64,000 nt of DNA, from positions 310,001-374,000 of the forward strand of contig NZ_JARUXC010000002.1 in the NCBI RefSeq assembly GCF_030433855.1, written 5' to 3'. A model generated the notes under the pieces. That model searched no databases and was not told the origin of the DNA. It worked only from the letters and a program-made list of their open reading frames with translations. Both the position numbers and the translations under genes were made by a program. Below, piece by piece: positions 50,354-62,466 of this stretch (within the stretch, counting starts at the first letter, position 1; the number at the start of each line of letters is the position of its first letter). The DNA is from Agreia sp. PsM10. Lineage in GTDB: Bacteria; Actinomycetota; Actinomycetes; Actinomycetales; Microbacteriaceae.

Positions 50354-51721
50354 TCACGCGCGCGAGACGTAGCGGCGGGGCTTTCCGTCGCCGAGGTCGG
50401 AGAGGGACGGGCGCTGCTGCACCTCGACCGTGCGGCCGAGCAGTGCTTCAAGGGCGGCTGTGACCTGCGCCGAATCGCCCCGCACGATCGTCGCCTCGAC
50501 CCGGCCCGTCGCATCCTGAATCACCGACCAGCCGTGCGCGCCGGCCGCCTGCAGGTGCTGGGTCAGGTCGACGCACGGCACGCGGCTGCCGTCGGCGGCC
50601 AGAAACGTGGTCGCCTCGCGACCCTCGAGGTCGGCGATCGCGAGCCGACCGCCGACGTCGACCAGGCGGCCGAAGTCGCCCGTGCGGTAGCGCACGAGAG
50701 GCAGCAGGGAGTTCTCGCCGGCGGTCACCACGATCTCTCCGTGCGCGCCGGGCGGGGCCGGTCGGCCCCGCTCGTCGACGATCTCGACGTGCACGCGCCG
50801 GTCGAGCACCACGAACGGCCCGTCGTCGGCGCGGGATGCGATGGGCCGGGTCTCGTGGAGTCCGTAGATGTCGATCACGGGGCAGCCGTAAGCACGCTCG
50901 AGGTCGTGGCGCAGCGCACTCGACAGGGCCATCGCGCCGGAGAAGATCGCGAGCGGGCGGAGCGCCGCGACGAGCTCGGCGTCGAGCAGCTCGGCGAGGC
51001 TGGTGGGGCTGCCGCTGAACGCCTGCGGGTTCTGGTCGACGAGGAATCGTGTGCGAGCGTCAGGGCTGCGCCACCCGCGCCGGTCGAGATTGAGCCGGGC
51101 CATCGTGGCCTGGTCGAAGGAGCTGATCACCGAGGCGTAGGTGAACGCCTGCCGTTGCTTCACGACGTGGGCGAGCGCGAGGCGGGTGTGATCCGGCTCC
51201 CACACGACACCCTGTTCGGCGGCGAGGGCGATCATCAGGTGGAAGGTCCGTGCCGTGTCCTCGATGTCGTCGGGAATCAGCAGCGCGCGGCCCGTGCTGC
51301 CCGAGCTCGACCCGTGCACCGCCCGTGCGAGATCGGCGTCGAGGGGCACGAACGCCGACACATCGTCGACGAGGTCGTCACGGGTGATCAGGGGGAAGTC
51401 CTGCAGCGAGCGAAGCTCCGCCGCCCGTCTTCGGTAGGCGGGAAGGCGTCGCGCCGTGTCGAGGTGCTCGTCGATCCAGCCGGCCGTCGGCAGGGGCCGG
51501 CGCACGCGCCGCACGGCCTCGGCCGAGAGCCGGTCGCCCGTGGCGTGAACCCACGCCGGGGCATCCGGATGCGACCTGAGCGTCTCGAGCCGACGCGCGC
51601 CCTCGGGGCTGAGTGTCGGCCACCGTTCGGCATCGACGAGGGCCGTCTGGCCGCCGGGAGTGTACTCGGCGATGGCCAGGGGATCGTCGGGGTCTGGCGC
51701 GTTGATGCCGTTCACGCTCAT
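50354..51721 (-). CDS. PaaK/CapK-like adenylate-forming enzyme
   Basis: 455 aa. It has the marks of the phenylacetate-CoA-ligase-like branch of ANL enzymes: phosphate-binding SSSGSTGRA (138-146), a YGLHE motif in place of YGxTE, YRTGD near the start of the C-terminal part, and a C-terminal subdomain ending in RRYV. These enzymes activate a carboxylate as an acyl-adenylate. The P-loop ends in Arg rather than Lys. No acyl carrier protein or CoA-pathway gene is adjacent. It is the last gene of the MoxR/VWA operon and overlaps the upstream gene by ATGA. The substrate is unknown. Confidence 0.8.
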   Translation of the reverse strand: MSVNGINAPDPDDPLAIAEYTPGGQTALVDAERWPTLSPEGARRLETLRSHPDAPAWVHATGDRLSAEAVRRVRRPLPTAGWIDEHLDTARRLPAYRRRAAELRSLQDFPLITRDDLVDDVSAFVPLDADLARAVHGSSSGSTGRALLIPDDIEDTARTFHLMIALAAEQGVVWEPDHTRLALAHVVKQRQAFTYASVISSFDQATMARLNLDRRGWRSPDARTRFLVDQNPQAFSGSPTSLAELLDAELVAALRPLAIFSGAMALSSALRHDLERAYGCPVIDIYGLHETRPIASRADDGPFVVLDRRVHVEIVDERGRPAPPGAHGEIVVTAGENSLLPLVRYRTGDFGRLVDVGGRLAIADLEGREATTFLAADGSRVPCVDLTQHLQAAGAHGWSVIQDATGRVEATIVRGDSAQVTAALEALLGRTVEVQQRPSLSDLGDGKPRRYVSRA

Positions 51722-52389
51722 TCGTGGGTGTACCGGGCGGCCGCCTCGCGCGCCCGGGCGTCGTTCAGGGCGCGGGTCACCTCGAGGCGGTGTGCATGCT
51801 CCGCAGCGGCGGCGGCCAGAGCTCCGTTGCGTTGCAGCGAGTCCCGCATGTCGAGCAGCGATCGAGCCGTCTCGCGGTCCTCGCCGGCGGGCAGTGCGCC
51901 CGACCAGAGCAGGAAGGTCCGGGCGGCCTCGTCTCGGCGCTCGGCGTCGCTGATCCACTCGGAGGGATCGACGACGGCGGCCAACCGCAGCGCGAGAGCC
52001 GCGAGTGTGCGCGCCGCGTGGGCGGTCTCCAGCCGGGGAGCGAATGCACCGAGCAGGTCTTCGCTCGCCCAGAGCCACAGGGCGATGGCCGCGCCCCGTC
52101 TGGCGGCCGACGACCTCGTCTCCGTGACGTCGCTGAGCAACTGCACGACCTCGGTCGATGCGGGCGTGCGGCCGCGATCGGCGCCGAGAACGTCGCCGGC
52201 GAGGGCCAGCAGGGAGACCCGGTCGTCGAGGAAGCTCTTCGGGATGCTCGAGAGACGGCTGCCCACGACGTCGACGGGTGGCCCGGGCACGGCCCGCTGC
52301 CAGGCTGCGTCGACGTCGTCGCCGCAGTCGAGCCAGCGCTGCAGCAGCTGCTCGGCCGACTCGATGTCCGGCTCCATTCGATCAGCCAC
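51718..52389 (-). CDS. Unknown alpha-helical protein of the MoxR/VWA operon
   Basis: 223 aa, with no motif I recognise. The sequence is rich in Ala, Leu, Arg and Glu, predicted almost entirely helical (RRGAAIALWLWASEDLLGAFAPRLETAHAARTLAALALRLAAVV; LLDMRDSLQRNGALAAAAAEHAHRLEVTRALNDARAREAAARY). It has no signal peptide and no cysteine pair suggesting metal binding. It overlaps the VWA gene by eight bases and the PaaK-like gene by four, so it is translated with both. An adaptor between the two is a reasonable guess. Confidence 0.75.
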   Translation of the reverse strand: MADRMEPDIESAEQLLQRWLDCGDDVDAAWQRAVPGPPVDVVGSRLSSIPKSFLDDRVSLLALAGDVLGADRGRTPASTEVVQLLSDVTETRSSAARRGAAIALWLWASEDLLGAFAPRLETAHAARTLAALALRLAAVVDPSEWISDAERRDEAARTFLLWSGALPAGEDRETARSLLDMRDSLQRNGALAAAAAEHAHRLEVTRALNDARAREAAARYTHE

Positions 52390-54349
52390 GTCGACCTCCA
52401 GCTTCAGTGCGTCGAAGGCCCGGCGGTTCGGCGAGTCTGCGGGCCAGGCGCGCGCAGACGAGGGGCGCGTCCGTCATCCTGTCGATGTACTCGACGTCGT
52501 AGCCGGCCTCGGTGGCCGGCTCCGTGAGGCGACGACCGGCATCCTGAACGACGAGCGTGGCGGTGTCGAGGGTTCGGCGCACCGTCCGCGCCACGTCCGC
52601 ATACTGTGGCTGCCCCGCACCGAACATCGACTGCAGGCCGTCGTCGGAGAGCACGACGACGTGCCGTCGTTTGACGGACGCGCCGGCTCCGCGGGAGCGT
52701 CGCGCGTCGGCGTAGCGGGTCGCGTAGAGGTCGAGGGGAAACGTCGTTCCGTGCCCGAAATAGAAGGTGAGGTCGCGCATCAACTCGGCCCTGTCGCGGG
52801 TGAACCGTGCGCCGCCCGCGACCTCGCCCGCTGCGGAGAACGACGTCACTCGCGCCTGTCCGCCCCCGCGGAGGGCGCTCAGAATGAGGATGGTGCCGGC
52901 CAGCACGCCCGGAGATTCGCGTCGAGGTGCGGTCATCGACCCGGAGGAGTCGATATAGATGTCGAGCTGCACGCTCTCACGGGCGTCGGGAGGAGCATCC
53001 GGCAGCACATCGCGAAGCCTCGTCGTGACGCCGGGAACGACGGTCGTGCTGTGCGACAGTGAGGCAGGCCAGTCGATCGCCGAGATGTCGTCGTCGATGT
53101 TCCACTGCTCGAGGGCGCCGGGGATGGTCTCGTCGAGTGAGCGCGGCGTGCTCGGGGGCTGGGTGAGGGGCCGCACGTACCGGCGGGCAGCGGTGAGGTA
53201 CCAGGCCGCCACGACGTCGTCGGCATTCGCCGCCGAATAGAGCGCCAGCGTGTCGGCCAATCCGTATCCCTGGCCGAGCCCGTCGACGCTCGCGTCGTCG
53301 GCCGATTCGTCGTTGGCCTCCATGCCGGTGCCCGAGGCCGATGCGGCCTGGCGCGCCTTCTCGACGGCCGGATGCTCCGGCACCTCGCGCAGCCGCGGGT
53401 CGCCGAGCACCCGCTCGAGTTCGGCCGCCGTGGGAGCCGTCTCGTCGGCTTGCCCCGCGCATCCGCCCGCCGCCTGCGCGCCGGCCGCCGTCGAGCGCCG
53501 ACGGGGCTCCCCGTCGGAGATCAGGTAGGGCGCCATGATCATGCCGAAGCGCAGGGCGCCGCTCACCGGGTCGTCGCCGAAGGTGCGCACGGTCTCGGCG
53601 AGGAGGGCGGCGTCGAGGGGCGGATTCGTGAGCACGAGCTCCGCCCAGCGCGCCTCGGCGGCGATGCGGGCGTCGGCGGCCGCTGCTGCCTCGACGGCCT
53701 TCAGCCTCTGCTCCTCGGTCTTCGTCGCGGCGGGCACCGTCGGTGGTGGCGGCTGCCGGTGCACGACGGGCCGCGGCGGCGGTTCCGCCGGGCACAGGAA
53801 TCCTGCCGGCCTGCTCCAGAGGATCTCGTAGGCGCGCAGCACCACCCACCAGAGCTGGTCGGAGGGTGGCGACACTGACAGCGCGCGCCACATGGTGATC
53901 ATCTGGGGGTCGCCGGAGGTCGCGCCGTCGCGCTGCCGCTGCATCGTCGCGACGCGGGTGTTGATCAGCATGTCCGACCACAGGTTCGACATGCGGTGGG
54001 CCTGGCCGTCGGGATCGGGGATGCGGGCCCGTCCCGTGGCGGCGATGGCCCGGGCGAGCTGCTGGGTGATCGTGAACGAGTCGATACGCGTGCTCGGAGA
54101 CAGCACGTGGTGGCCGATCTCGTGCGCGAAGATCGATTCGTAGAACCCGTCGACCCCGTGGCGGCGGGCCTCGGTCGGATCGACCGACACCTGCGGTGGA
54201 AACGAGAACCACGCGAACGACGACCTCGCGGCACCGGGTTCGAGGAGAGGATCATGCAGGCGCACGCCCCACAGCGCCTGCGCCGACTGCCAAGCCGCGC
54301 GCTGCGCCTCGTCGAGAGGATGCTCGCGTGCACCGAAGAGAGGGGTCAT
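52382..54349 (-). CDS. Zincin + VWA domain protein (DUF2201-like)
   Basis: 655 aa. The N-terminal part carries a zinc-peptidase signature HEIGH (76-80), with a NLWSDMLINTR helix after it. A Pro-rich and then charged linker follows. The C-terminal VWA domain starts near residue 460 with a complete MIDAS: D467, S469, S471 (DSSGSM), T535/T536 (HGTTFP) and D569/D570 (LSDDG). The pairing of a putative metallopeptidase with a VWA-like domain recalls DUF2201 proteins, partners of MoxR ATPases. It overlaps the unknown gene upstream by ATGA and sits between unknown proteins in a five-gene run. It probably forms a complex with the MoxR protein at 55062. Confidence 0.85.
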   Translation of the reverse strand: MTPLFGAREHPLDEAQRAAWQSAQALWGVRLHDPLLEPGAARSSFAWFSFPPQVSVDPTEARRHGVDGFYESIFAHEIGHHVLSPSTRIDSFTITQQLARAIAATGRARIPDPDGQAHRMSNLWSDMLINTRVATMQRQRDGATSGDPQMITMWRALSVSPPSDQLWWVVLRAYEILWSRPAGFLCPAEPPPRPVVHRQPPPPTVPAATKTEEQRLKAVEAAAAADARIAAEARWAELVLTNPPLDAALLAETVRTFGDDPVSGALRFGMIMAPYLISDGEPRRRSTAAGAQAAGGCAGQADETAPTAAELERVLGDPRLREVPEHPAVEKARQAASASGTGMEANDESADDASVDGLGQGYGLADTLALYSAANADDVVAAWYLTAARRYVRPLTQPPSTPRSLDETIPGALEQWNIDDDISAIDWPASLSHSTTVVPGVTTRLRDVLPDAPPDARESVQLDIYIDSSGSMTAPRRESPGVLAGTILILSALRGGGQARVTSFSAAGEVAGGARFTRDRAELMRDLTFYFGHGTTFPLDLYATRYADARRSRGAGASVKRRHVVVLSDDGLQSMFGAGQPQYADVARTVRRTLDTATLVVQDAGRRLTEPATEAGYDVEYIDRMTDAPLVCARLARRLAEPPGLRRTEAGGRRG

Positions 54350-55065
54350 CGGGCCTTCTCCAGCAGCAGCCAGGCGAGGTACGAGGTGTCGAAGACGGCG
54401 AGTCGGGTGGGCCAGGCTCCGGATGCCGCGGGTCGGCCGACGGGGTCGGCTGCGGTCGCGGGCGCCGAGTCAGACGGCAGCCGGGAGAGACTCGTGCCGA
54501 AGATATCGGCGTCGAGCTGCCAGCGCTCGCCGTCGGTGAGCGTGATGACGAATCGGCCCTCCCGATCGCCGTGCTCGCCCGTCAGGGGCGGTGCCGTCCA
54601 CGCGCCGCCCAGCCCGCGGAATCCGCCGACACGGGCGATCACGACGTCGCCGTCGCCCCTGGCCGGCCATCCGAACGGGCTCTCGGCCTGGGCGCTCGCG
54701 AAGTCGTCGAGTTCGGAGGGCTGCAGGCCCACGGCGCTCGCGAGGGCCTGTCGCGGCACCGACCCGGAGCCGAGCGCCTCGCCGAGCCGGGCGAGAGCAT
54801 CCTGCCTCAGATCGAGCGTGCCCGAGCGCCACGCGGAGAGGGCCGCGAGCGTGAGAACGGTGTGCGGCAGCGGCCCGTCTGTGCTGGCAGCGGCATCGTC
54901 GGCCGCGAGGGCGAGCGACAGGAAGTGTGTGTAGAGGGTCGAGTCTCCGCCCCAGGATTCGACGTTGCGGATCGACTGGTCGACATCGAAGCCGGGAACG
55001 GCGGGCACGACCGTCGTCTGCGGCTGAAGGCCGTCGTCGACGGCCTGGCCGGGCCGTCGGATCAT
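54346..55065 (-). CDS. Unknown protein between MoxR and VWA genes
   Basis: 239 aa from ATG 55065, which overlaps the MoxR stop by four bases (ATGA); an ATG at 55086 would add seven residues. The N-terminal part looks helical (STLYTHFLSLALAADDAAAS; LRQDALARLGEALGSGSVPRQALASAVGLQPSELDDF). The C-terminal part looks beta-rich (GDVVIARVGGFRGLGGAW; GRFVITLTDGERWQLDADIFG). I do not recognise it. Its place between an AAA+ ATPase and its VWA partner suggests a structural or regulatory subunit. Confidence 0.75.
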   Translation of the reverse strand: MIRRPGQAVDDGLQPQTTVVPAVPGFDVDQSIRNVESWGGDSTLYTHFLSLALAADDAAASTDGPLPHTVLTLAALSAWRSGTLDLRQDALARLGEALGSGSVPRQALASAVGLQPSELDDFASAQAESPFGWPARGDGDVVIARVGGFRGLGGAWTAPPLTGEHGDREGRFVITLTDGERWQLDADIFGTSLSRLPSDSAPATAADPVGRPAASGAWPTRLAVFDTSYLAWLLLEKAR

Positions 55066-56636
55066 CGGGGGCGACCCTCGAGCCACTGCAGGTAGTTGGT
55101 GTAGCGCTGGTGCAGGTACTTCAGGGCCACGAGGTCGTCGAAATGCCGACCGTAGAGCTTCTTCTGCTTCGAGATCGTCTGGATCTGCGACTCGATGGCC
55201 GTGAGGCGGCGCGACGCCTCGACCTGGCTGACACCGTCGAGTCCCGCCGTGAATTCCGCGAGGAGGTCGCCGACCGGGTCGCTCTTCGCGAGTCCAAGTG
55301 ACAGGAACTGGCGACGCGACTGCTCGAACAGATCGGCGAGCCAGCTGATCGAGTCGGTCGCGAGCTCCCTGTCGGCGCCGGTCTCGAACCGGGGGTGCAG
55401 CTCGTTGGGAAGCAGTTTTCCCCGCAGGGAGAAGGGCAGCACCGCGGCGACGTCGTCGAGTCCGACGACATCGACGCCTCGGAAGTAGGCCATGGCCTTC
55501 GCGTAGGTGATGAGCGACTGCAGCGCCCGGGCCGAGAGGCTGTTCACGGTCTGCGCCCCGAGGTCGACCTGCAGGTCTGCGCCGGTGTTGCTGTCGATCA
55601 CCTCGCCGACCTGGCCGCCCGAGGTCATCACCGTGTCCTTCGTGCGGTATTCGAAGCGGCGGCCTCCGTGCTGCACGAACTCGAACTGGCTCGCGAAGAA
55701 CTCGAGCTGTCGACGCACGTCGCGGGGAACGGGAACCGCCCGGATGGCCGCCGCCAGCGCGGTCTGTTCGGCAGCGCTGAACACCAGCTCGGCGGGAACG
55801 TGGTCCTCGGGCTTCTCCCCGGCCTCGACCCGGGTGATGAGCTCGTCGAAGAACCTGCTGTTGAATCCCTGCGCCGCGACCGTGACGTCGACCCTGTCTT
55901 TCAGGGCCTGGATGACCGGGAACGTTCCCCCGCCCGAATCGTCGTTGGCGGTGAAGAACCAGCTCTCGACGCCGGACTCGGGAGCCGTGCGGAGCATCTG
56001 GTCATAGCTCTCGACGTAGCCCTCGGCCACCATCGTGAGCAGCGCGGACTGGGTCTTGGTGGGGATGCGGTTGTATTCGTCGATGATCTTGACGGGTTTC
56101 GTGAGCCAGCCGCGCCAGGCGATGGTGATCTCGGGCAGGCTGGCGGCGTTCACGAGGTCGCGGGGCAGGGGCATGCCGACGAGGTCTCCGACCGTGAGCT
56201 GGGGCTGCCCCTGCTGCACGCTTCGCCGCACCTCGGCGGGTTCGGTGCCCGCGATCACGCCCATCAGCACGGCGAGGGTGGTCTTTCCGCGCCCCGGCCC
56301 GCCGACGAGCAGGCATTTTCCGCCGACCGCCGTGGTGAGCAGGGGCAGCAGGACGTTCGACGAATACGACTGGTCGGTGGGCAGGTGCAGCTCTGCGCCG
56401 GCGTCGCCGAGGGGAAAGCTCACCGGGGCGTCGAGCGAGAATTCGATGTCGTAGAACGGCGAGATGACGGCACGGTTGACGAGCCAGAAGTAGACGCGGC
56501 GCAGCTTCTCGTCGAGGGCGACCTGGTCGACGGTGTTCGGCTGGCGGAACAGGTCTTCGGCTGTCAGGCCCGGGCGGGATGCGCCGGTGCCGGTTCGCGT
56601 GGGGGATTCCGAGATCTTGTTCCAGCGATTGGGCAT
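55062..56636 (-). CDS. MoxR-type AAA+ ATPase (accessory operon)
   Basis: 524 aa. Walker A GGPGRGKT (112-119), Walker B KIIDEYNRIP (183-192), and the arginine/sensor part (FFTANDDSGGGTFPVIQALKDRVDVTVAAQGF) place it in the MoxR/RavA group. It carries a long N-terminal extension of about 100 residues and a C-terminal helical extension of about 150 residues, so it is much larger than the core MoxR at 22822 (324 aa). It is the first gene of the tight run (unknown, VWA, unknown, PaaK-like), with a small gene 43 bp upstream. It probably remodels the VWA-bearing partner using ATP. Confidence 0.9.
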   Translation of the reverse strand: MPNRWNKISESPTRTGTGASRPGLTAEDLFRQPNTVDQVALDEKLRRVYFWLVNRAVISPFYDIEFSLDAPVSFPLGDAGAELHLPTDQSYSSNVLLPLLTTAVGGKCLLVGGPGRGKTTLAVLMGVIAGTEPAEVRRSVQQGQPQLTVGDLVGMPLPRDLVNAASLPEITIAWRGWLTKPVKIIDEYNRIPTKTQSALLTMVAEGYVESYDQMLRTAPESGVESWFFTANDDSGGGTFPVIQALKDRVDVTVAAQGFNSRFFDELITRVEAGEKPEDHVPAELVFSAAEQTALAAAIRAVPVPRDVRRQLEFFASQFEFVQHGGRRFEYRTKDTVMTSGGQVGEVIDSNTGADLQVDLGAQTVNSLSARALQSLITYAKAMAYFRGVDVVGLDDVAAVLPFSLRGKLLPNELHPRFETGADRELATDSISWLADLFEQSRRQFLSLGLAKSDPVGDLLAEFTAGLDGVSQVEASRRLTAIESQIQTISKQKKLYGRHFDDLVALKYLHQRYTNYLQWLEGRPR

Positions 56637-56679
56637 GGCACCAGTCTAGGAAGCTGCGGAGCGGTGCGGGGGAGAGCTG

Positions 56680-57042
56680 CTACGCCGCGCGGACCGGACC
56701 GACGAGGGTCGTGGTGCGGGGAGCCGCGTCGGTGACTGCCTTGGCTAGTTCGGCGGGCACGTCGACGGTGTTGATCGGGGCGAGCGGCGTGCGCGACGCC
56801 GGGGTCTCCGCAGCACGGAAGACGCCGTGGCTGGTGAGCGTCGACACGATATCGCGGGCCACGGAGGCGGCCAGGACGGTGTGGAAGATGTCGTCGGTGT
56901 CGACCTCGGTGCGGCGGGTGATCGCGAACGAACCGTAGGGACCGAAGTTCTCCATGAGGGTCTGGTTCACCAGCTCGGAAAGGCGCTGCTGGTTGGCCTC
57001 GTCTTGTTGTTCTGCCTTCGCGCGTCGTCGCCATCCGAGCAT
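56680..57042 (-). CDS. Small unknown protein upstream of the MoxR gene
   Basis: 120 aa from ATG 57042, preceded by GGGAAGG. The sequence begins with a basic stretch (MLGWRRRAKAEQQDEANQQ), then helical segments (QRLSELVNQTLMENFGPYGSFAITRR; IFHTVLAASVARDIVSTLTSHGVF), and a variable tail. It has no motif that I recognise. The 43-bp gap to the MoxR gene allows co-transcription, so it may be a sixth member of the operon or its regulator. Confidence 0.65.
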   Translation of the reverse strand: MLGWRRRAKAEQQDEANQQRLSELVNQTLMENFGPYGSFAITRRTEVDTDDIFHTVLAASVARDIVSTLTSHGVFRAAETPASRTPLAPINTVDVPAELAKAVTDAAPRTTTLVGPVRAA

Positions 57043-57174: not shown

Positions 57175-58746
57175 TTAACCCTTCGGGTGGCCGGACGCGT
57201 CGAGGTCCTCCGACCGGATCTCCTCGGCCACCGCGCCCCCGTAGCCATCGGTTTCGGGGTCGCCGTGCAGGCCTCCCGACAGCGCGTACTCCTCCTCGGG
57301 AGACAGCACGAGCTGCTTGCGTCCCCAGAGGGCGAACCCGAGCAGGATCAGTGCGTAGACGATCACGATCGCGATGATGGCCGGCTGGAAGGTGACGTTC
57401 AGCAGGAAGCCCAGGAAGATGAGCGCGGAGATCACGCCGGCGACCACGGCGCCGGGGATGCCCCACGGGCTCACGTAGGGCCGCTTGGCGTTGGGGAACT
57501 TCTTGCGCAGGATCACGAAGGAGATCATCTGCAGCAGATAGGCCACGACAGCGCCCCAGACGGCGATGTTCAGGATGATCGCTCCCGCGACCGCCCCCGC
57601 TCCCTCAGCGTCGACGTTCGACAGGATGTCGAGAACGACGAGGGCGATGAAACCGATCACCGCGCCCACGGTGAGGGCGACCCAGGGCGTCTGGCGCTTG
57701 CCGGTGAGCGAGAAGAACTTCGGGTAGTACCCGGCGCGGGAGAGCGAGTACATGTTGCGTCCGTAGGCGAACATGATGCCCTGGAGCGAGGCGAGCAGGC
57801 CGATCAGCGCGAAGAGCGCGAGGGCCGCGGCCGCCTGGTCTCCCACGATCGCGCGGAATCCGTCGAGCAGGGGCTCCGCCGAGACGCCCATGTTCTCTGC
57901 GCCGATCACGCCGGTGTTGAGGAACAGGATCAGCAGTCCGGTCACGATGAGGGTTCCGCGGGCCCAGAAGCCCGCCTTGGGAATGTCGCGCACCGGGTTG
58001 TGGGCCTCCTCGGCCGCGAGCGGCAGCTCCTCGATGCCGAGGAAGAACCACATGGCGAAGGGCAGCGCGAAGAGGATCGGGATCACGCCGTGGGGGAGGA
58101 ACGCCGACTGGCCCGGGTCGGGTTCGATGTTGAAGAGGCTGTCCCAGCTGAAGAGTCCCGAGAACGCGGCCATGGCCGAGAAGACCAGCAGGATCGCGAT
58201 GGAGATGATCGACACGACGATCGCGAACTTGAACGAGATTGCGGCCCCGGCAGCGTTCAGCGCGATGAACGCGATGTAGAGCACCAGCCACCAGATCCAC
58301 ATGGCGCCTGAGAGGTCGAAGCCGAGGAGCTCGGTCGTGATGCTGTTGGCATACTGCGCCGAGAAGAAGACGATCACACCGGTCGTTGCCACGTATTCGA
58401 TGGTCTCGGCGAGACCCGTCACGAGTCCGCCCCACGGCCCCATCGCCGAGCGGGCGAACGAGTACGCGCCTCCCGTGTGCGGCATGGCCGCCGCCATCTC
58501 GCCGATCGAGAAGATCATTCCGTAGTACATGACGATGAGCAGGGCGAAGGCGATGAGCATGCCCCCGAAGCCGGCGAAGTCGATTCCGAAGTTCCACCCC
58601 GAGAAGTCTCCCGAGATGACTGCCGCCACGGCGAGGCCCCAGAGCCCCCAGATGCCCGCCGATCTCTTGAGCGTGCGTTTCTCGAAGTAGCCGTCTGCAG
58701 CCTTGCTGTAGGTGACGCCCGAACGGCGGGTCTTGCTGTCAGTCAC
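57175..58746 (-). CDS. APC-family permease, ethanolamine-permease-like
   Basis: 523 aa with about 12 helices. The N-terminus (SAGIWGLWGLAVAAVISGDFSGWNFGI) and MFAYGRNMYSLSRAGYYP segment match the ethanolamine/putrescine-type APC transporters; the SGDFSGWN loop recalls ethanolamine permeases. The GTG 58746 start has CGGAGGA five bases upstream. The frame is open 25 codons further without support. It is divergent from the GlnA-like ligase gene and should import its substrate. Ethanolamine is the favoured ligand; putrescine or another amine is possible. Confidence 0.82.
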   Translation of the reverse strand: MTDSKTRRSGVTYSKAADGYFEKRTLKRSAGIWGLWGLAVAAVISGDFSGWNFGIDFAGFGGMLIAFALLIVMYYGMIFSIGEMAAAMPHTGGAYSFARSAMGPWGGLVTGLAETIEYVATTGVIVFFSAQYANSITTELLGFDLSGAMWIWWLVLYIAFIALNAAGAAISFKFAIVVSIISIAILLVFSAMAAFSGLFSWDSLFNIEPDPGQSAFLPHGVIPILFALPFAMWFFLGIEELPLAAEEAHNPVRDIPKAGFWARGTLIVTGLLILFLNTGVIGAENMGVSAEPLLDGFRAIVGDQAAAALALFALIGLLASLQGIMFAYGRNMYSLSRAGYYPKFFSLTGKRQTPWVALTVGAVIGFIALVVLDILSNVDAEGAGAVAGAIILNIAVWGAVVAYLLQMISFVILRKKFPNAKRPYVSPWGIPGAVVAGVISALIFLGFLLNVTFQPAIIAIVIVYALILLGFALWGRKQLVLSPEEEYALSGGLHGDPETDGYGGAVAEEIRSEDLDASGHPKG

Positions 58747-58992
58747 GTGGATCCTCCGGTAGCTCGTTGTCTCGGCAGTGCACAGCGGAACGCCATCGGC
58801 TCCCTCGCACGATTTCTGCACACACTAGCGTTCTATTGGTTGGTTGGCACCACCTTTGTGTGTAAATTGCGTGTTACGAACACGGGCAACAACTCCCGCT
58901 CAGCCGACGAACTCGTGTGATGTAATGGTCGGGTCGACGGGGTTCCGCAGCGCGGGAATCGCCCGTGGCGACCATCGATGAAGGAGCACACC
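58747..58992. promoter_or_regulatory. Divergent control region, permease / GlnA-like ligase
   Basis: 246 bp, AT-rich for this genome. For the ligase: -35 TTGGTT (58840-58845) and -10 TAAATT (58863-58868), 17 bp apart. CGTGTTACGAACACG at 58870-58884 is a perfect palindrome right after the -10. TGGT-TGGC-ACCA at 58841-58852 is a second dyad overlapping the -35. An operator for the FadR-type regulator at 63270 is the obvious idea. Confidence 0.55.
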
Positions 58993-60360
58993 GTGGCATC
59001 CACCGCAGGAAATCTCACGCTCGACGCCCTCACGGCCCAGGTCTCGGCCGGCGAGGTCGACACCGTGATCGTGGCCTTCACCGACATGCAGGGCAGGCTC
59101 GTGGGCAAGCGGCTCTCGGCCCGCCTCTTCGTCGAAGACGCGGCGTCGCACGGAGCCGAGTGCTGCAACTACCTGCTCGCCGTCGACGTCGAGATGAACA
59201 CGGTCGACGGATACGACATGTCGAGCTGGGAGCACGGCTACGGCGACATGGCGATGATGCCCGACATGTCGACCCTGCGAACGATTCCGTGGCTGCCGGG
59301 CACGGCGATGGTCACCGCCGACCTGCACTGGCTCGACGGCGAGCCGGTCGAGCCGTCGCCGCGGCAGATCCTGGCGGCGCAGATGAAGCGCCTCGCCGAT
59401 CGCGGCCTCGAGGCGTTCGTCGCCACCGAACTCGAGTTCATCGTCTTCGACGACAGCTACCGCTCTGCCTGGTCGAAGGGATACCGCGACCTCACCCCCG
59501 CGAGCGACTACAACATCGACTACGCCCTGCTGGCCTCCACGCGCATGGAGCCGCTGCTGCGCGACATCCGGGTGTCGATGGACGGCGCCGGCATGTACTG
59601 CGAGGGCGTGAAGGGCGAGTGCAACTTCGGGCAGCAGGAGATCGGCTTCCGCTACGACGACGCCATGGTCACGTGCGACAACCACTCGATCTACAAGAAC
59701 GGTGCCAAGGAGATCGCGGATCGGCACGGCAAGTCGCTCACGTTCATGGCCAAGTTTAACGAACGCGAGGGCAACTCGTGCCACGTGCACATCAGCCTCA
59801 GAGGCACCGACGGCACTGCAGTCTTCAGTGATCCGGATGCCGAGAACGGCATGTCAGACATGTTCCGTCATTTCATGGCAGGCCAGCTCAAGACGCTGCG
59901 CGAGCTGACGCTGTTCTTCGCGCCCAACATCAACTCGTACAAGCGCTACGTCGACGGCTCGTTCGCGCCGACGGCAGTGGCCTGGGGGCTCGACAACCGC
60001 ACCTGCGCCCTGCGCGTGGTGGGCAAGGGCCTCGGAATGCGCGTCGAGAACCGCGTTCCCGGGGGCGACGTGAACCAGTACCTGGCGACCGCCGCCCTCA
60101 TCGCCGGCGGGCTCTACGGAATCGAGAACGAGCTCGAGCTCGAAGACGCGACCGTAGGCAACGCGTACACGTCGGGTGCACCGCGCGTGCCCACGAACCT
60201 GCGCGATGCGGCCGAGCTCTTCGCGTCGAGCGAGATCGCCCGGGCCGCGTTCGGTGACGAGGTCGTCGACCACTACGTGAACAACGCGCGCATCGAGCTG
60301 AAGGCCTTCGACAGCGCCGTCACCGACTGGGAGAGGGTGCGCGGCTTTGAGCGCCTCTGA
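58993..60360 (+). CDS. GlnA-type gamma-glutamyl-amine ligase
   Basis: 455 aa of the glutamine synthetase fold, type III/PuuA-like. FVATELEFIVFDD, the GEGQQE-equivalent NFGQQEIGFRYDD, the ATP-site SCHVHIS and NSYKRYVDGSFAPTAVAWGLDNRTCALRV are present. The start is GTG 58993, with AAGGAG six bases upstream. Instead of ammonia such enzymes join glutamate to an amine. In Streptomyces, GlnA3 acts on polyamines and GlnA4 on ethanolamine. The neighbouring permease and hydrolase support this class; which amine is used cannot be read from sequence. The hydrolase gene overlaps its end. Confidence 0.88.
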   Translation: MASTAGNLTLDALTAQVSAGEVDTVIVAFTDMQGRLVGKRLSARLFVEDAASHGAECCNYLLAVDVEMNTVDGYDMSSWEHGYGDMAMMPDMSTLRTIPWLPGTAMVTADLHWLDGEPVEPSPRQILAAQMKRLADRGLEAFVATELEFIVFDDSYRSAWSKGYRDLTPASDYNIDYALLASTRMEPLLRDIRVSMDGAGMYCEGVKGECNFGQQEIGFRYDDAMVTCDNHSIYKNGAKEIADRHGKSLTFMAKFNEREGNSCHVHISLRGTDGTAVFSDPDAENGMSDMFRHFMAGQLKTLRELTLFFAPNINSYKRYVDGSFAPTAVAWGLDNRTCALRVVGKGLGMRVENRVPGGDVNQYLATAALIAGGLYGIENELELEDATVGNAYTSGAPRVPTNLRDAAELFASSEIARAAFGDEVVDHYVNNARIELKAFDSAVTDWERVRGFERL

Positions 60361-61102
60361 TCGCCTGCCGGTTATCGGCCTCACGACCTACCTCGAACGC
60401 GCGAAGACCGGAGTCTGGGACGTTCCCGCCTCGTTCCTCCCGAAGGTCTACTTCGATGCCGTCGAGAAGGCCGGCGGCATCGCCGTGCTGCTGCCGCCCC
60501 AGGCCGTCAGCGACGCGATCGCGGATCGCCTGCTCGATTCTCTCGACGGCCTGATCCTCACCGGCGGCAAGGACATCGAACCGTCGCGCTACGGCCAGGA
60601 GGCCCACGCCGAGACCGACGAGCCCCGGCGCGACCGCGACGCGTGGGAGGACACGCTGCTGCGCCGTGCGATCGATCGCGAGATCCCGTTCCTCGGCATC
60701 TGCCGGGGAGCGCAGATGCTGAACGTCGCGCGGGGCGGAACCCTGCACCAGCACCTTCCCGATGTCGTCGGCGACCGTCGATACCAGGCCGGCGACGGAA
60801 TCTTCAACCACGTGGAGGTCGGCGTCGAACAGGGCTCGCGACTCGCATCGCTGCTCGCGAGCGACGAACTCGACGTTCCCGTCTACCACCACCAGGCCAT
60901 CGACTCGCTCGGCGACGGGCTCGTCGTGACCGCCCGAACCCCCGACGGAACGATCGAGGCGGTCGAGCTCGAGTCCGTTCCGTTCGGCGTCGCCGTGCAG
61001 TGGCACCCCGAGGAGTCGCCCGACGACATCCGACTCTTCGCCGGCCTCGTCGAGGCGGCCCGACAGTACCGAGCACAGGAACAGGAACACCCGACAGCAT
61101 GA
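60347..61102 (+). CDS. PuuD-like class I amidotransferase / gamma-glutamyl hydrolase
   Basis: 251 aa. The nucleophile elbow FLGICRGAQMLNV has C119, with the histidine and glutamate in QWHPEE near the C-terminus: the complete peptidase C26 triad. It should release glutamate from the gamma-glutamyl intermediate, as PuuD does in putrescine catabolism. The TTG start at 60347 lies 14 bases before the end of the ligase gene; no other start is available. The stop overlaps the aldehyde dehydrogenase start (ATGA). Confidence 0.88.
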   Translation: MSASDRLPVIGLTTYLERAKTGVWDVPASFLPKVYFDAVEKAGGIAVLLPPQAVSDAIADRLLDSLDGLILTGGKDIEPSRYGQEAHAETDEPRRDRDAWEDTLLRRAIDREIPFLGICRGAQMLNVARGGTLHQHLPDVVGDRRYQAGDGIFNHVEVGVEQGSRLASLLASDELDVPVYHHQAIDSLGDGLVVTARTPDGTIEAVELESVPFGVAVQWHPEESPDDIRLFAGLVEAARQYRAQEQEHPTA

Positions 61103-62466
61103 GCAGCTACACCGTGATCAACCCGGCGACGGAAGAGGTCGTCACCGACGTCGAGCTCTTCGACGTCGAGGGCACCGACGACGCCATCGCGCGGGCGGCG
61201 GATGCGCAGAAGGCATGGGCGCGCCGGGCCCCCGCAGAGCGGGCGCAGGCCCTGCGGGACTTCGCGGCGGCCGTCGACGCGAACGTCGAGGCACTCGCCC
61301 GGCTGGAGACCCTGAATTCCGGCCATCCGATCGGCCAGGCCCGCTGGGAGGCGGGCCACGTGCGCGACGTGCTCACCTACTACTCGGCGGCTCCCGAACG
61401 GCTCTTCGGTAAACAGATCCCGGTCGCCGGCGGCCTCGACGTCACGTTCCACGAGCCCCTCGGCGTGGTGGGAGTCATCACGCCGTGGAACTTTCCCATG
61501 ACCATCGCGGCGTGGGGGTTCGCCCCGGCGCTCGCGGCGGGCAACGCGGTCGTGCTGAAGCCGGCCGAGTGGACGCCGCTGACCTCGGTGCGGCTCGCCG
61601 AGATCGGGCGGGAGTCCGGACTGCCCGACGGCCTGTTCCAGGTGTTGCCCGGGCACGGGAACGTGGTCGGGGAGCGCTTCGTGACCAACCGGACCGTGCG
61701 CAAGGTCGTGTTCACCGGGTCGACCGCTGTGGGCAAGAAGATCATGGCGGGCAGTGCCGAGCAGGTGAAGAGGGTGACCCTCGAGCTCGGCGGCAAGAGC
61801 GCCAACATCGTGTTTGCCGACTCCGACCTCGAGAGGGCCGCCGCCTCGGCCCCGTCGGGGGTCTTCGACAACGCGGGGCAGGACTGCTGCGCGCGCAGTC
61901 GCATCCTGGTCGAGCGCAGCGTCTACGACCGCTTCATGGAGTTGCTCGAGCCCGCGGTGAACCGGGTCGTCGTCGGCGACCCGAACGACGAGGCCACCGA
62001 GATGGGACCGCTCGTCTCGGCGAAGCACCACGCGTCGGTGAGCTCGTATGTTCCCGACGACAGCCAGGTCGCGTTCCGGGGATCCGCGCCGCAGGGCCCG
62101 GGGTACTGGTTCCCGCCGACGGTGCTCACGCCGGGTCGCGACGACCGCACCGCCACCGAGGAGATCTTCGGACCTGTCGTAACGGTGCTCCCGTTCGACG
62201 ACGAGGCCGACGCGGTGTCGCTGGCGAACGCCACGGAATACGGCCTCTCGGGCTCGATCTGGACCCGCGACGTCGGCCGCGCGTTGCGCGTCTCCCGCGG
62301 CGTCGAGGCGGGCAACCTCTCGGTCAACTCGCACTCCTCCGTGCGCTACAGCACCCCGTTCGGCGGCTTCAAGCAGTCGGGCCTCGGCCGTGAGCTCGGC
62401 CCCGACGCACCCCTCAGTTTCACCGACACCAAGAACGTCTTCATCGCCGTAGAGGAGCTCTCATGA
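61099..62466 (+). CDS. NAD(P)-dependent aldehyde dehydrogenase
   Basis: 455 aa. Landmarks: N131 in TPWNFPM, VTLELGGKSANIV with Glu229, and GQDCCARS with catalytic Cys263. In the cluster it would oxidise the aldehyde made when the gamma-glutamylated amine or alcohol is oxidised. That fits PuuC-type enzymes. The short N-terminus is normal for this branch. Overlaps on both sides (ATGA) show one operon. Confidence 0.92.
   Translation: MSSYTVINPATEEVVTDVELFDVEGTDDAIARAADAQKAWARRAPAERAQALRDFAAAVDANVEALARLETLNSGHPIGQARWEAGHVRDVLTYYSAAPERLFGKQIPVAGGLDVTFHEPLGVVGVITPWNFPMTIAAWGFAPALAAGNAVVLKPAEWTPLTSVRLAEIGRESGLPDGLFQVLPGHGNVVGERFVTNRTVRKVVFTGSTAVGKKIMAGSAEQVKRVTLELGGKSANIVFADSDLERAAASAPSGVFDNAGQDCCARSRILVERSVYDRFMELLEPAVNRVVVGDPNDEATEMGPLVSAKHHASVSSYVPDDSQVAFRGSAPQGPGYWFPPTVLTPGRDDRTATEEIFGPVVTVLPFDDEADAVSLANATEYGLSGSIWTRDVGRALRVSRGVEAGNLSVNSHSSVRYSTPFGGFKQSGLGRELGPDAPLSFTDTKNVFIAVEELS

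Follow-up and report, generated by a model that had tools for sequence, protein, structure and literature searches.

What does a compact bacterial operon do when it encodes a MoxR-type AAA+ ATPase, a protein joining a metallopeptidase-like (zincin) domain to a VWA domain, a PaaK-like acyl-adenylating enzyme and two proteins of no recognised family? The question is raised by a stretch of 64,000 nucleotides from Agreia sp. PsM10 (NZ_JARUXC010000002.1, positions 310,001 to 374,000), hereafter the window, whose positions are used below. The gene content, gene order and intact catalytic residues of this five-gene cassette are found in three phyla, and the cassette is linked to, and co-occurs with, pnuC and nadR. 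PnuC is a nicotinamide riboside (NR) importer, and NadR is an NR kinase/nicotinamide mononucleotide (NMN) adenylyltransferase. The cassette is probably an undescribed part of nicotinamide adenine dinucleotide (NAD) salvage, and its functional coupling to NR/NAD salvage is, in our judgement, very likely.

The five genes, arranged like a single transcription unit, lie on the minus strand (50354..56636) and overlap by 4, 4, 8 and 4 bases, with ATGA at 55062-55065, 54346-54349 and 51718-51721 and an 8-base overlap at 52382-52389. In order, they encode the MoxR ATPase (P0002, 524 amino acids (aa); 55062..56636), P3 (P0003, 239 aa; 54346..55065), the zincin-VWA protein (P0004, 655 aa; 52382..54349), P5 (P0005, 223 aa; 51718..52389, with a GTG start codon at 52389) and the PaaK-like enzyme (P0006, 455 aa; 50354..51721). 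The original prediction for this locus had described five overlapping minus-strand genes, namely a MoxR ATPase, a HEIGH zinc-peptidase-like domain joined to a VWA domain with a full metal ion-dependent adhesion site (MIDAS), an adenylate-forming enzyme of the PaaK type and two unrecognised partners. All of its coordinates were reproduced, and these identities agree with the domain matches and conserved residues given below.

The MoxR protein matches Pfam AAA_3 (28.0 bits vs a curated cut-off of 27) and AAA_lid_2 (24.9 vs 22.7) and is the most conserved cassette member, its column identity averaging 71% across 22 sequences. Its Walker A motif, GGPGRGKT (residues 112-119; 56280..56303, minus strand), has K118 and T119 in 80/80 rows. 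The Walker A, Walker B and sensor 1 residues K118, D186, E187 and N231 are likewise present in 80/80 rows from three phyla, a few of these rows being the same locus entered twice. The rows used for catalytic residues cover 20 third-phylum loci of 31 matches, trimmed to the matched domain, and the VWA columns are gapped in 19 rows. The roles of the catalytic residues are presumed to be those in their families.

The two domains of the zincin-VWA protein were read from motifs in its sequence. The N-terminal HEIGHH motif (residues 76-81; 54107..54124, minus strand) keeps H76, E77, G79 and H80 in 76/76 rows, and HExxH together with the candidate third ligands D126 and E175 is present in all 76. On these motifs, the zincin domain is putatively catalytic. 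In the C-terminal VWA domain, the MIDAS (DxSxS...T...D) begins with DSSGSM (residues 467-472; 52934..52951, minus strand); D467, S469, S471 and D569 occur in 57/57 non-gap rows and T535 in 56/58. Family matches were weak: Peptidase_M48 in 8 of 25 members (best 2.4e-4) and VWA_2 in two of the 25 (best E 0.032), with no VWA_2 match for the window protein at E ≤1. The DUF2201 model matched neither the window protein at E ≤1 nor any of the 25 members at 0.1. We take PF13203/PF09967 to be the DUF2201 putative metallopeptidase-VWA proteins, and presume likewise that NxxxDxxIN resembles a motif of theirs.

The PaaK-like enzyme matches PF00501 (AMP-binding; 41.8 bits vs a cut-off of 29.9), and its profile matches PaaK structures (best 1.5e-17). 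The glycine-rich (S/T)SG(S/T)TG loop is kept in nearly all 59 rows, E290 and Y345 in 59/59 and D349 in 58. K447 (codon at 50381..50383, minus strand), which we take to correspond to the C-terminal lysine that serves catalysis in adenylate-forming enzymes, is a lysine in 53/53 non-gap rows, with 6 rows gapped. Two specific assignments were considered and rejected: the PaaK equivalog (phenylacetate-CoA ligase; 47.2 bits vs a 646.3 cut-off) and the DVU_1553 AMP-dependent CoA ligase equivalog (89.6 bits vs 300).

P3 and P5, like the zincin-VWA protein, match no Pfam or NCBIfam family at E ≤1. P3 has N-terminal helices and C-terminal beta blades, and P5 is all-helical with a conserved C-terminal helix. 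Their AlphaFold models have predicted local distance difference test (pLDDT) values of 91.5 and 92.7, respectively, and no solved structure matched the predicted folds above background. A relative of P5 stands in the fourth slot in all three phyla, with E154, R157 and E170 in 66/66 rows. Both proteins occur in three phyla, and profiles made without L029, L071, L072 and the third-phylum rows still match those sequences (L-numbers denote loci, G-numbers genomes and C-numbers contigs of the window's own genome). P3 is probably an adaptor, and the same role is probable for P5.

A zincin-VWA search of genome_contigs gave 39 loci, in Agreia, Cryobacterium, Glaciihabitans, Frigoribacterium, Microbacterium, Schumannella, Nocardioides, Propionicimonas, Demequina, Mycolicibacterium/Mycobacterium, two Leptospirales drafts and one further bacterium; L071, coming from a Leptospirales draft, belongs to Spirochaetota. 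The closest match is that in Agreia sp. Leaf283, with 91% in zincin-VWA. By profile, all five genes stand in order in 37/39 loci (the exceptions are L068 and L073), so the order is not a product of chance. L030-L033, L059, L073 and some partial proteins were left out of profile building. A MoxR alignment search found matches in 20 of 247 Spirochaetota genomes and in 31 of 377 genomes of a third phylum, that of L073. Eighty loci were laid out, L026 and L036 being the same place in one genome and each counted. They include 18 of the 20 Spirochaetota matches (16 fetched, plus G439 and G440 as L071 and L072) and 21 of the 31 from the third phylum. In G536 and G597, the two Spirochaetota carriers outside the layout, the MoxR match is broken or split, and the NadR of G597 is partial. 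The order MoxR-P3-zincin-VWA-P5-PaaK is kept in 64/80 loci, spanning Actinomycetota, Spirochaetota and the third phylum; the PaaK-like gene and both unrecognised genes, whose association with the MoxR-VWA pair the original prediction had proposed, do travel with it. Within the window's family, Microbacteriaceae, zincin-VWA occurs in 4/120 genomes, own genome included, and the cassette is thus accessory there.

The genes next to the cassette point to its partner. The nadR gene lies inside the fetched stretch in 33/80 loci, and pnuC does too in 28 of those 33. In the 33 loci nadR is upstream on the same strand in 21, downstream on the same strand in 9 and downstream on the opposite strand in 3. 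Immediately ahead of moxR, 20 actinomycetal loci have pnuC and nadR, and nadR and moxR overlap or abut (L063, L027). Spirochaetota show the reverse order, with nadR, accompanied by pnuC or alone, after the PaaK-like gene, which directly adjoins one of the two. In the third phylum, pnuC-nadR precedes moxR in L179 and, in L170 and L177, lies past the cassette on the opposite strand, and one locus has a nicotinate phosphoribosyltransferase gene (589 bits) immediately upstream of moxR. The one PnuC protein scanned scored 81.6 against an NCBIfam cut-off of 42.45.

In the window's own genome, nadR-pnuC lies on another contig (C42:76619-78240), unlinked to the cassette, and this partner could therefore not be seen from the window. 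The genome has two PnuC paralogues: one adjoins nadR (C42:77698-78240), and the other (C13:74447-75010) has a score resembling that of the PnuC type carried by many NadR-less family members. The NadR proteins of actinomycetal loci (for example L027 5476-6642; own genome C42:76619-77617) lack the usual lysine in their kinase P-loop, GAES(T/S)G(S/T)TT. This P-loop occurs whether or not a genome carries the cassette, and the NadR proteins of L099 and L100 retain the lysine.

Co-occurrence extends beyond gene linkage. Among the 34 cassette genomes searched, PnuC was found in 33 and NadR in 32; the NadR misses are G440, where PnuC is at a contig start, and G441, which holds the incomplete L073. In Spirochaetota, NadR is present in 19/20 cassette genomes vs 30/227 others (49/247 in total; Fisher 2.8e-14), and in the 120 Microbacteriaceae genomes it is present in 4/4 carriers vs 2/116 others, one of the two partial (Fisher 1.8e-6). 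In an Actinomycetota sample, NadR was matched in 10/296 genomes, and of 7 longer matches two, G000 and G281, are in cassette carriers. A search for the cassette MoxR at 1e-10 in the ten other NadR genomes of the two samples gave none, and the positive control, G281, was matched. With NadR in 32/34 carriers and also in cassette-free genomes, the cassette implies NadR and not the reverse.

One could propose that the cassette and pnuC-nadR merely share an old cluster and have no common function. The MoxR tree lends something to this hitch-hiking explanation: its sequences group by phylum with just 2 phylum changes required, so that cassette carriers are clades. Against it stand the three differing arrangements in three phyla and the retention of co-presence without linkage and with another NadR lineage. 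On the MoxR tree, the unlinked Agreia sits beside the linked Cryobacterium and Glaciihabitans, and the unlinked Mycolicibacterium beside the linked Nocardioides. On the NadR tree, the 20 linked actinomycetal loci form one clade (Shimodaira-Hasegawa approximate likelihood ratio test (SH-aLRT) 100), and a second clade unites those of Agreia, Schumannella and Mycolicibacterium with the NadR of the cassette-free G019; the third-phylum L179 NadR sides with this second group at lower support. Both trees are quick, midpoint-rooted trees made with no bootstrap and have some long branches. The MoxR tree omits L036 and holds L071 and L072 twice each, and the 11 unlinked NadR rows from carriers in the NadR tree are a subset. 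Since the unlinked Agreia is nested among linked genera and its NadR is of another lineage, the co-presence of cassette and NadR outlasts their linkage. The most economical interpretation is a repeated loss of linkage, with a different NadR retaining the function. We regard hitch-hiking as very unlikely.

The same two NadR lineages bear on a second proposal, in which MoxR/zincin-VWA performs quality control by remodelling PnuC or NadR itself and the PaaK-like enzyme modifies one of them. Gene adjacency in three arrangements fits this proposal, as does a single PaaK-PnuC frame. However, PnuC and NadR also occur without the cassette, and two NadR lineages are awkward for a dedicated protein-protein contact, and we consider the proposal distinctly improbable. 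The frame, L144 1363-3345, carries PaaK-like and PnuC domains in one 660-aa open frame and was seen in one genome.

Several observations weigh against assigning the cassette to NR salvage. Every NadR match from the family searches falls below the TIGR01526 cut-off; for three NadR proteins TIGR01526 was the best family, at 171-182 vs 341. PnuC alone is a weak indicator: it occurs in 38/120 family genomes, that is, 4/4 carriers and 34/116 others (Fisher 0.009, a value that, like those above, ignores relatedness and is descriptive), and most family PnuC proteins are of the lower-scoring type. In the Actinomycetota sample, five of the 7 longer matches to NadR come from genomes lacking the cassette MoxR, and so does that of the family genome G019; NR salvage therefore does not need the cassette. 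The clade-like distribution of carriers noted above belongs here as well. No NAD-related domain was found within the five cassette proteins by Pfam or NCBIfam. By profile L073 holds MoxR and VWA only, and its genome, G441, has neither PnuC nor NadR; L183-L189 are also variants without the full set. L171, L174, L181 and L182 show no PaaK-like gene in the stretch, L174 stopping at a contig end, and the close relatives L181 and L182 hold a different enzyme in its slot. The L144 frame may be a defect, as the PaaK C-terminus with its catalytic lysine is missing.

Taken together, the best overall explanation is a five-gene machine working in NR salvage with PnuC and NadR, to which we give roughly even credence. 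By analogy with other MoxR-VWA pairs, an ATPase ring with a VWA co-chaperone may remodel a client. In the division of labour that we put forward tentatively, as less likely than not, MoxR would form the ring, zincin-VWA would act beside it as a co-chaperone bearing a metal-binding arm, and structural adaptor roles would fall to P3 and P5. Driven by ATP, the ring would remodel or mature the PaaK-like enzyme; that enzyme might then activate a carboxylate to an acyl-AMP for use in some step of the pyridine-nucleotide pathway into which PnuC and NadR feed. We regard the PaaK-like enzyme as the leading candidate for the client, or for the subunit that forms the product, since among the five it is the conserved enzyme. 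A bolder form of this idea, which we think somewhat unlikely, is an unrecognised nicotinamide nucleotide branch, in which an AAA+-driven, metal-dependent complex, as its catalytic core, would use NR imported by PnuC and processed by NadR, and a PaaK-like acyl-adenylate, to make or regenerate a pyridine-nucleotide product so far not known from bacteria.

The metal site admits a related alternative, in which NR is consumed rather than salvaged. A new nucleotide cofactor or signal would be made from NR/NMN, with the PaaK-like enzyme activating a pyridine carboxylate and MoxR/zincin-VWA inserting or handling the metal. This scheme loosely resembles nickel-pincer nucleotide synthesis, joined here to a NorQD-type insertase; metal insertion by NorQD is described in the portions of the literature available to us. 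It would fit the near-strict dependence on NR import and kinase, the invariant HExxH metal-site motif and the cation-efflux and ZupT-like genes between zincin-VWA and P5 in L134-L137. These metal transporter genes are, however, confined to near relatives, the ZupT-like gene is encoded on the opposite strand, and besides pnuC and nadR no family was seen recurring directly beside the cassette across the actinomycetal genera compared, where neighbours were clustered and few were annotated. We consider an NR-consuming branch unlikely. The inserted genes lie at L134 12608-14473 and in the same slot of L135-L137, their identities coming from the proteins of L134, which alone were scanned; in L072 (6778-7563) a ZupT-like gene stands alone between zincin-VWA and P5.

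A conflict system has also been considered, since vWA-MoxR ternary conflict systems are described in the part of the source available (PMC7159879). The cassette would then be their kin, and pnuC/nadR would rebuild NAD after an NAD-depleting response. In L181 and L182, the protein after P5 has a TCAD9 domain (ternary complex associated domain 9; 164 and 160 bits vs 40) and a phosphatase domain; NadR is encoded by some phages among enzymes countering NAD depletion, according to the accessible text of PMC9503650; and fvmX3, an 'FtsH ternary system' domain, gave a weak match in 1/25 zincin-VWA members (E 0.063). On the other hand, MoxR is highly conserved and branches by phylum, the PaaK-like partner is constant in most loci rather than variable, and PADLOC gave no weighty match among six proteins, namely the five and a small upstream open reading frame (ORF; best E 0.014 and 0.061; the six proteins alone were scanned, and their neighbourhoods were not scanned for defence or secondary-metabolite genes). 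At 1e-5, MoxR matched no plasmid or phage record (phages by tblastn) and zincin-VWA no plasmid record, and a short-pattern scan of viral_contigs found no relative. A link to defence, which the original prediction had proposed looking for, was thus not seen in PADLOC on these six proteins or in the plasmid and phage searches, the neighbourhoods being outside the search. We judge a conflict system improbable. The L181/L182 proteins (L181 16714-18999, L182 419-2725), from two third-phylum loci, are the chief hint of such a system. They are large fusions that begin with an isochorismatase-like part and also contain a TCAD9 kinase-like domain and a DSP phosphatase; being 77% identical, they represent one lineage.

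Other variants were observed. In one genome of Mycolicibacterium, L068 (9980-18419) is a rearranged cassette with zincin-VWA ahead of MoxR and a partial match to P5. L177 (15152-17595) has a second zincin-VWA and a second P5 after the PaaK-like gene, followed by a convergent nadR-pnuC. A distant MoxR-VWA pair occurs in other Actinomycetota (L030 8179-9765, L031 8651-10240, L032 8767-10356); its N-terminal zinc motif is lost, reading Q(L/M)LHYAL, and a conserved third gene of 281 aa accompanies the pair in L030 and L031.

The small ORF (120 aa; 56680..57042, minus strand), 43 bp from its end at 56680 to the MoxR start at 56636, had been proposed as a sixth member, a view not upheld. Among 48 loci compared it occurs only in those of Agreia, and in two of these, L037 and L038, it is displaced about 6 kb from the cassette; it matches no Pfam family at E ≤1 and no weighty family in NCBIfam or PADLOC. 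The core MoxR of the window, at about 23.3-23.7 kb (AAA_3, 213 bits), is a separate gene, and the cassette is indeed distinct from the core MoxR/DUF58 module. Upstream of the cassette, at 57175-62466, lies a four-gene set recalling polyamine catabolism, whose products we take from sequence to be an amino-acid permease, a glutamine-synthetase-like ligase, a glutamine-amidotransferase-like hydrolase and an aldehyde dehydrogenase.

MoxR-VWA pairs are widespread and few have known clients; here a five-protein set has a named metabolic partner, so that client and reaction become directly testable through NR uptake, NAD pools and a new pyridine compound. The set is also a handle on P3 and P5, two protein families without annotation in the libraries searched. 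If the assignment is true, this would be, as far as could be found, the first case of an AAA+ machine connected with NAD salvage. A search of open-licence literature, from which most subscription journals are absent, yielded no account of the five-gene set or of its pnuC/nadR link. PnuC-NadR NR salvage is a recurrent genomic partner of the cassette, and NadR is also found alone; to our knowledge, the known PnuC-NadR pathway includes no AAA+ machine or acyl ligase. With the PaaK and DVU_1553 ligases, the cassette enzyme shares the adenylate-forming core, loop, E, RYxTGD and C-terminal K, but it falls far below the equivalog cut-offs. NorQ-NorD, RavA-ViaA and CbbQ-CbbO resemble the cassette in having a MoxR ATPase beside a full-MIDAS VWA protein, with intact Walker and sensor residues in the cassette; as far as the available descriptions of them go, the cassette differs in its zincin-fused VWA protein, two extra conserved subunits, PaaK-like enzyme and NR-salvage linkage. 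A closer counterpart is found in jumbo phage group 2.2, where the same pair, MoxR and a vWA protein with an N-terminal metallopeptidase, has been proposed to act in virion assembly (PMC7824862). The accessible part of that source mentions no P3, P5, PaaK or NadR partner, and the cassette MoxR, as noted, matched no phage record. The vWA-MoxR ternary systems share the MoxR-vWA core with further conserved partners, and TCAD9 in L181/L182, to judge from the part of PMC7159879 available. Neither a VMAP, iSTAND or FtsH third component nor a beta-propeller fused to vWA was recognised in the cassette with Pfam, NCBIfam or PADLOC, and the blade-like part of P3 is in a separate gene, not fused to VWA. 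On the sources as far as available, the MoxR and metallopeptidase-vWA pair of jumbo phages and the vWA-MoxR conflict systems with extra partners are already known, whereas the five-gene set and its metabolic link appear to be new.

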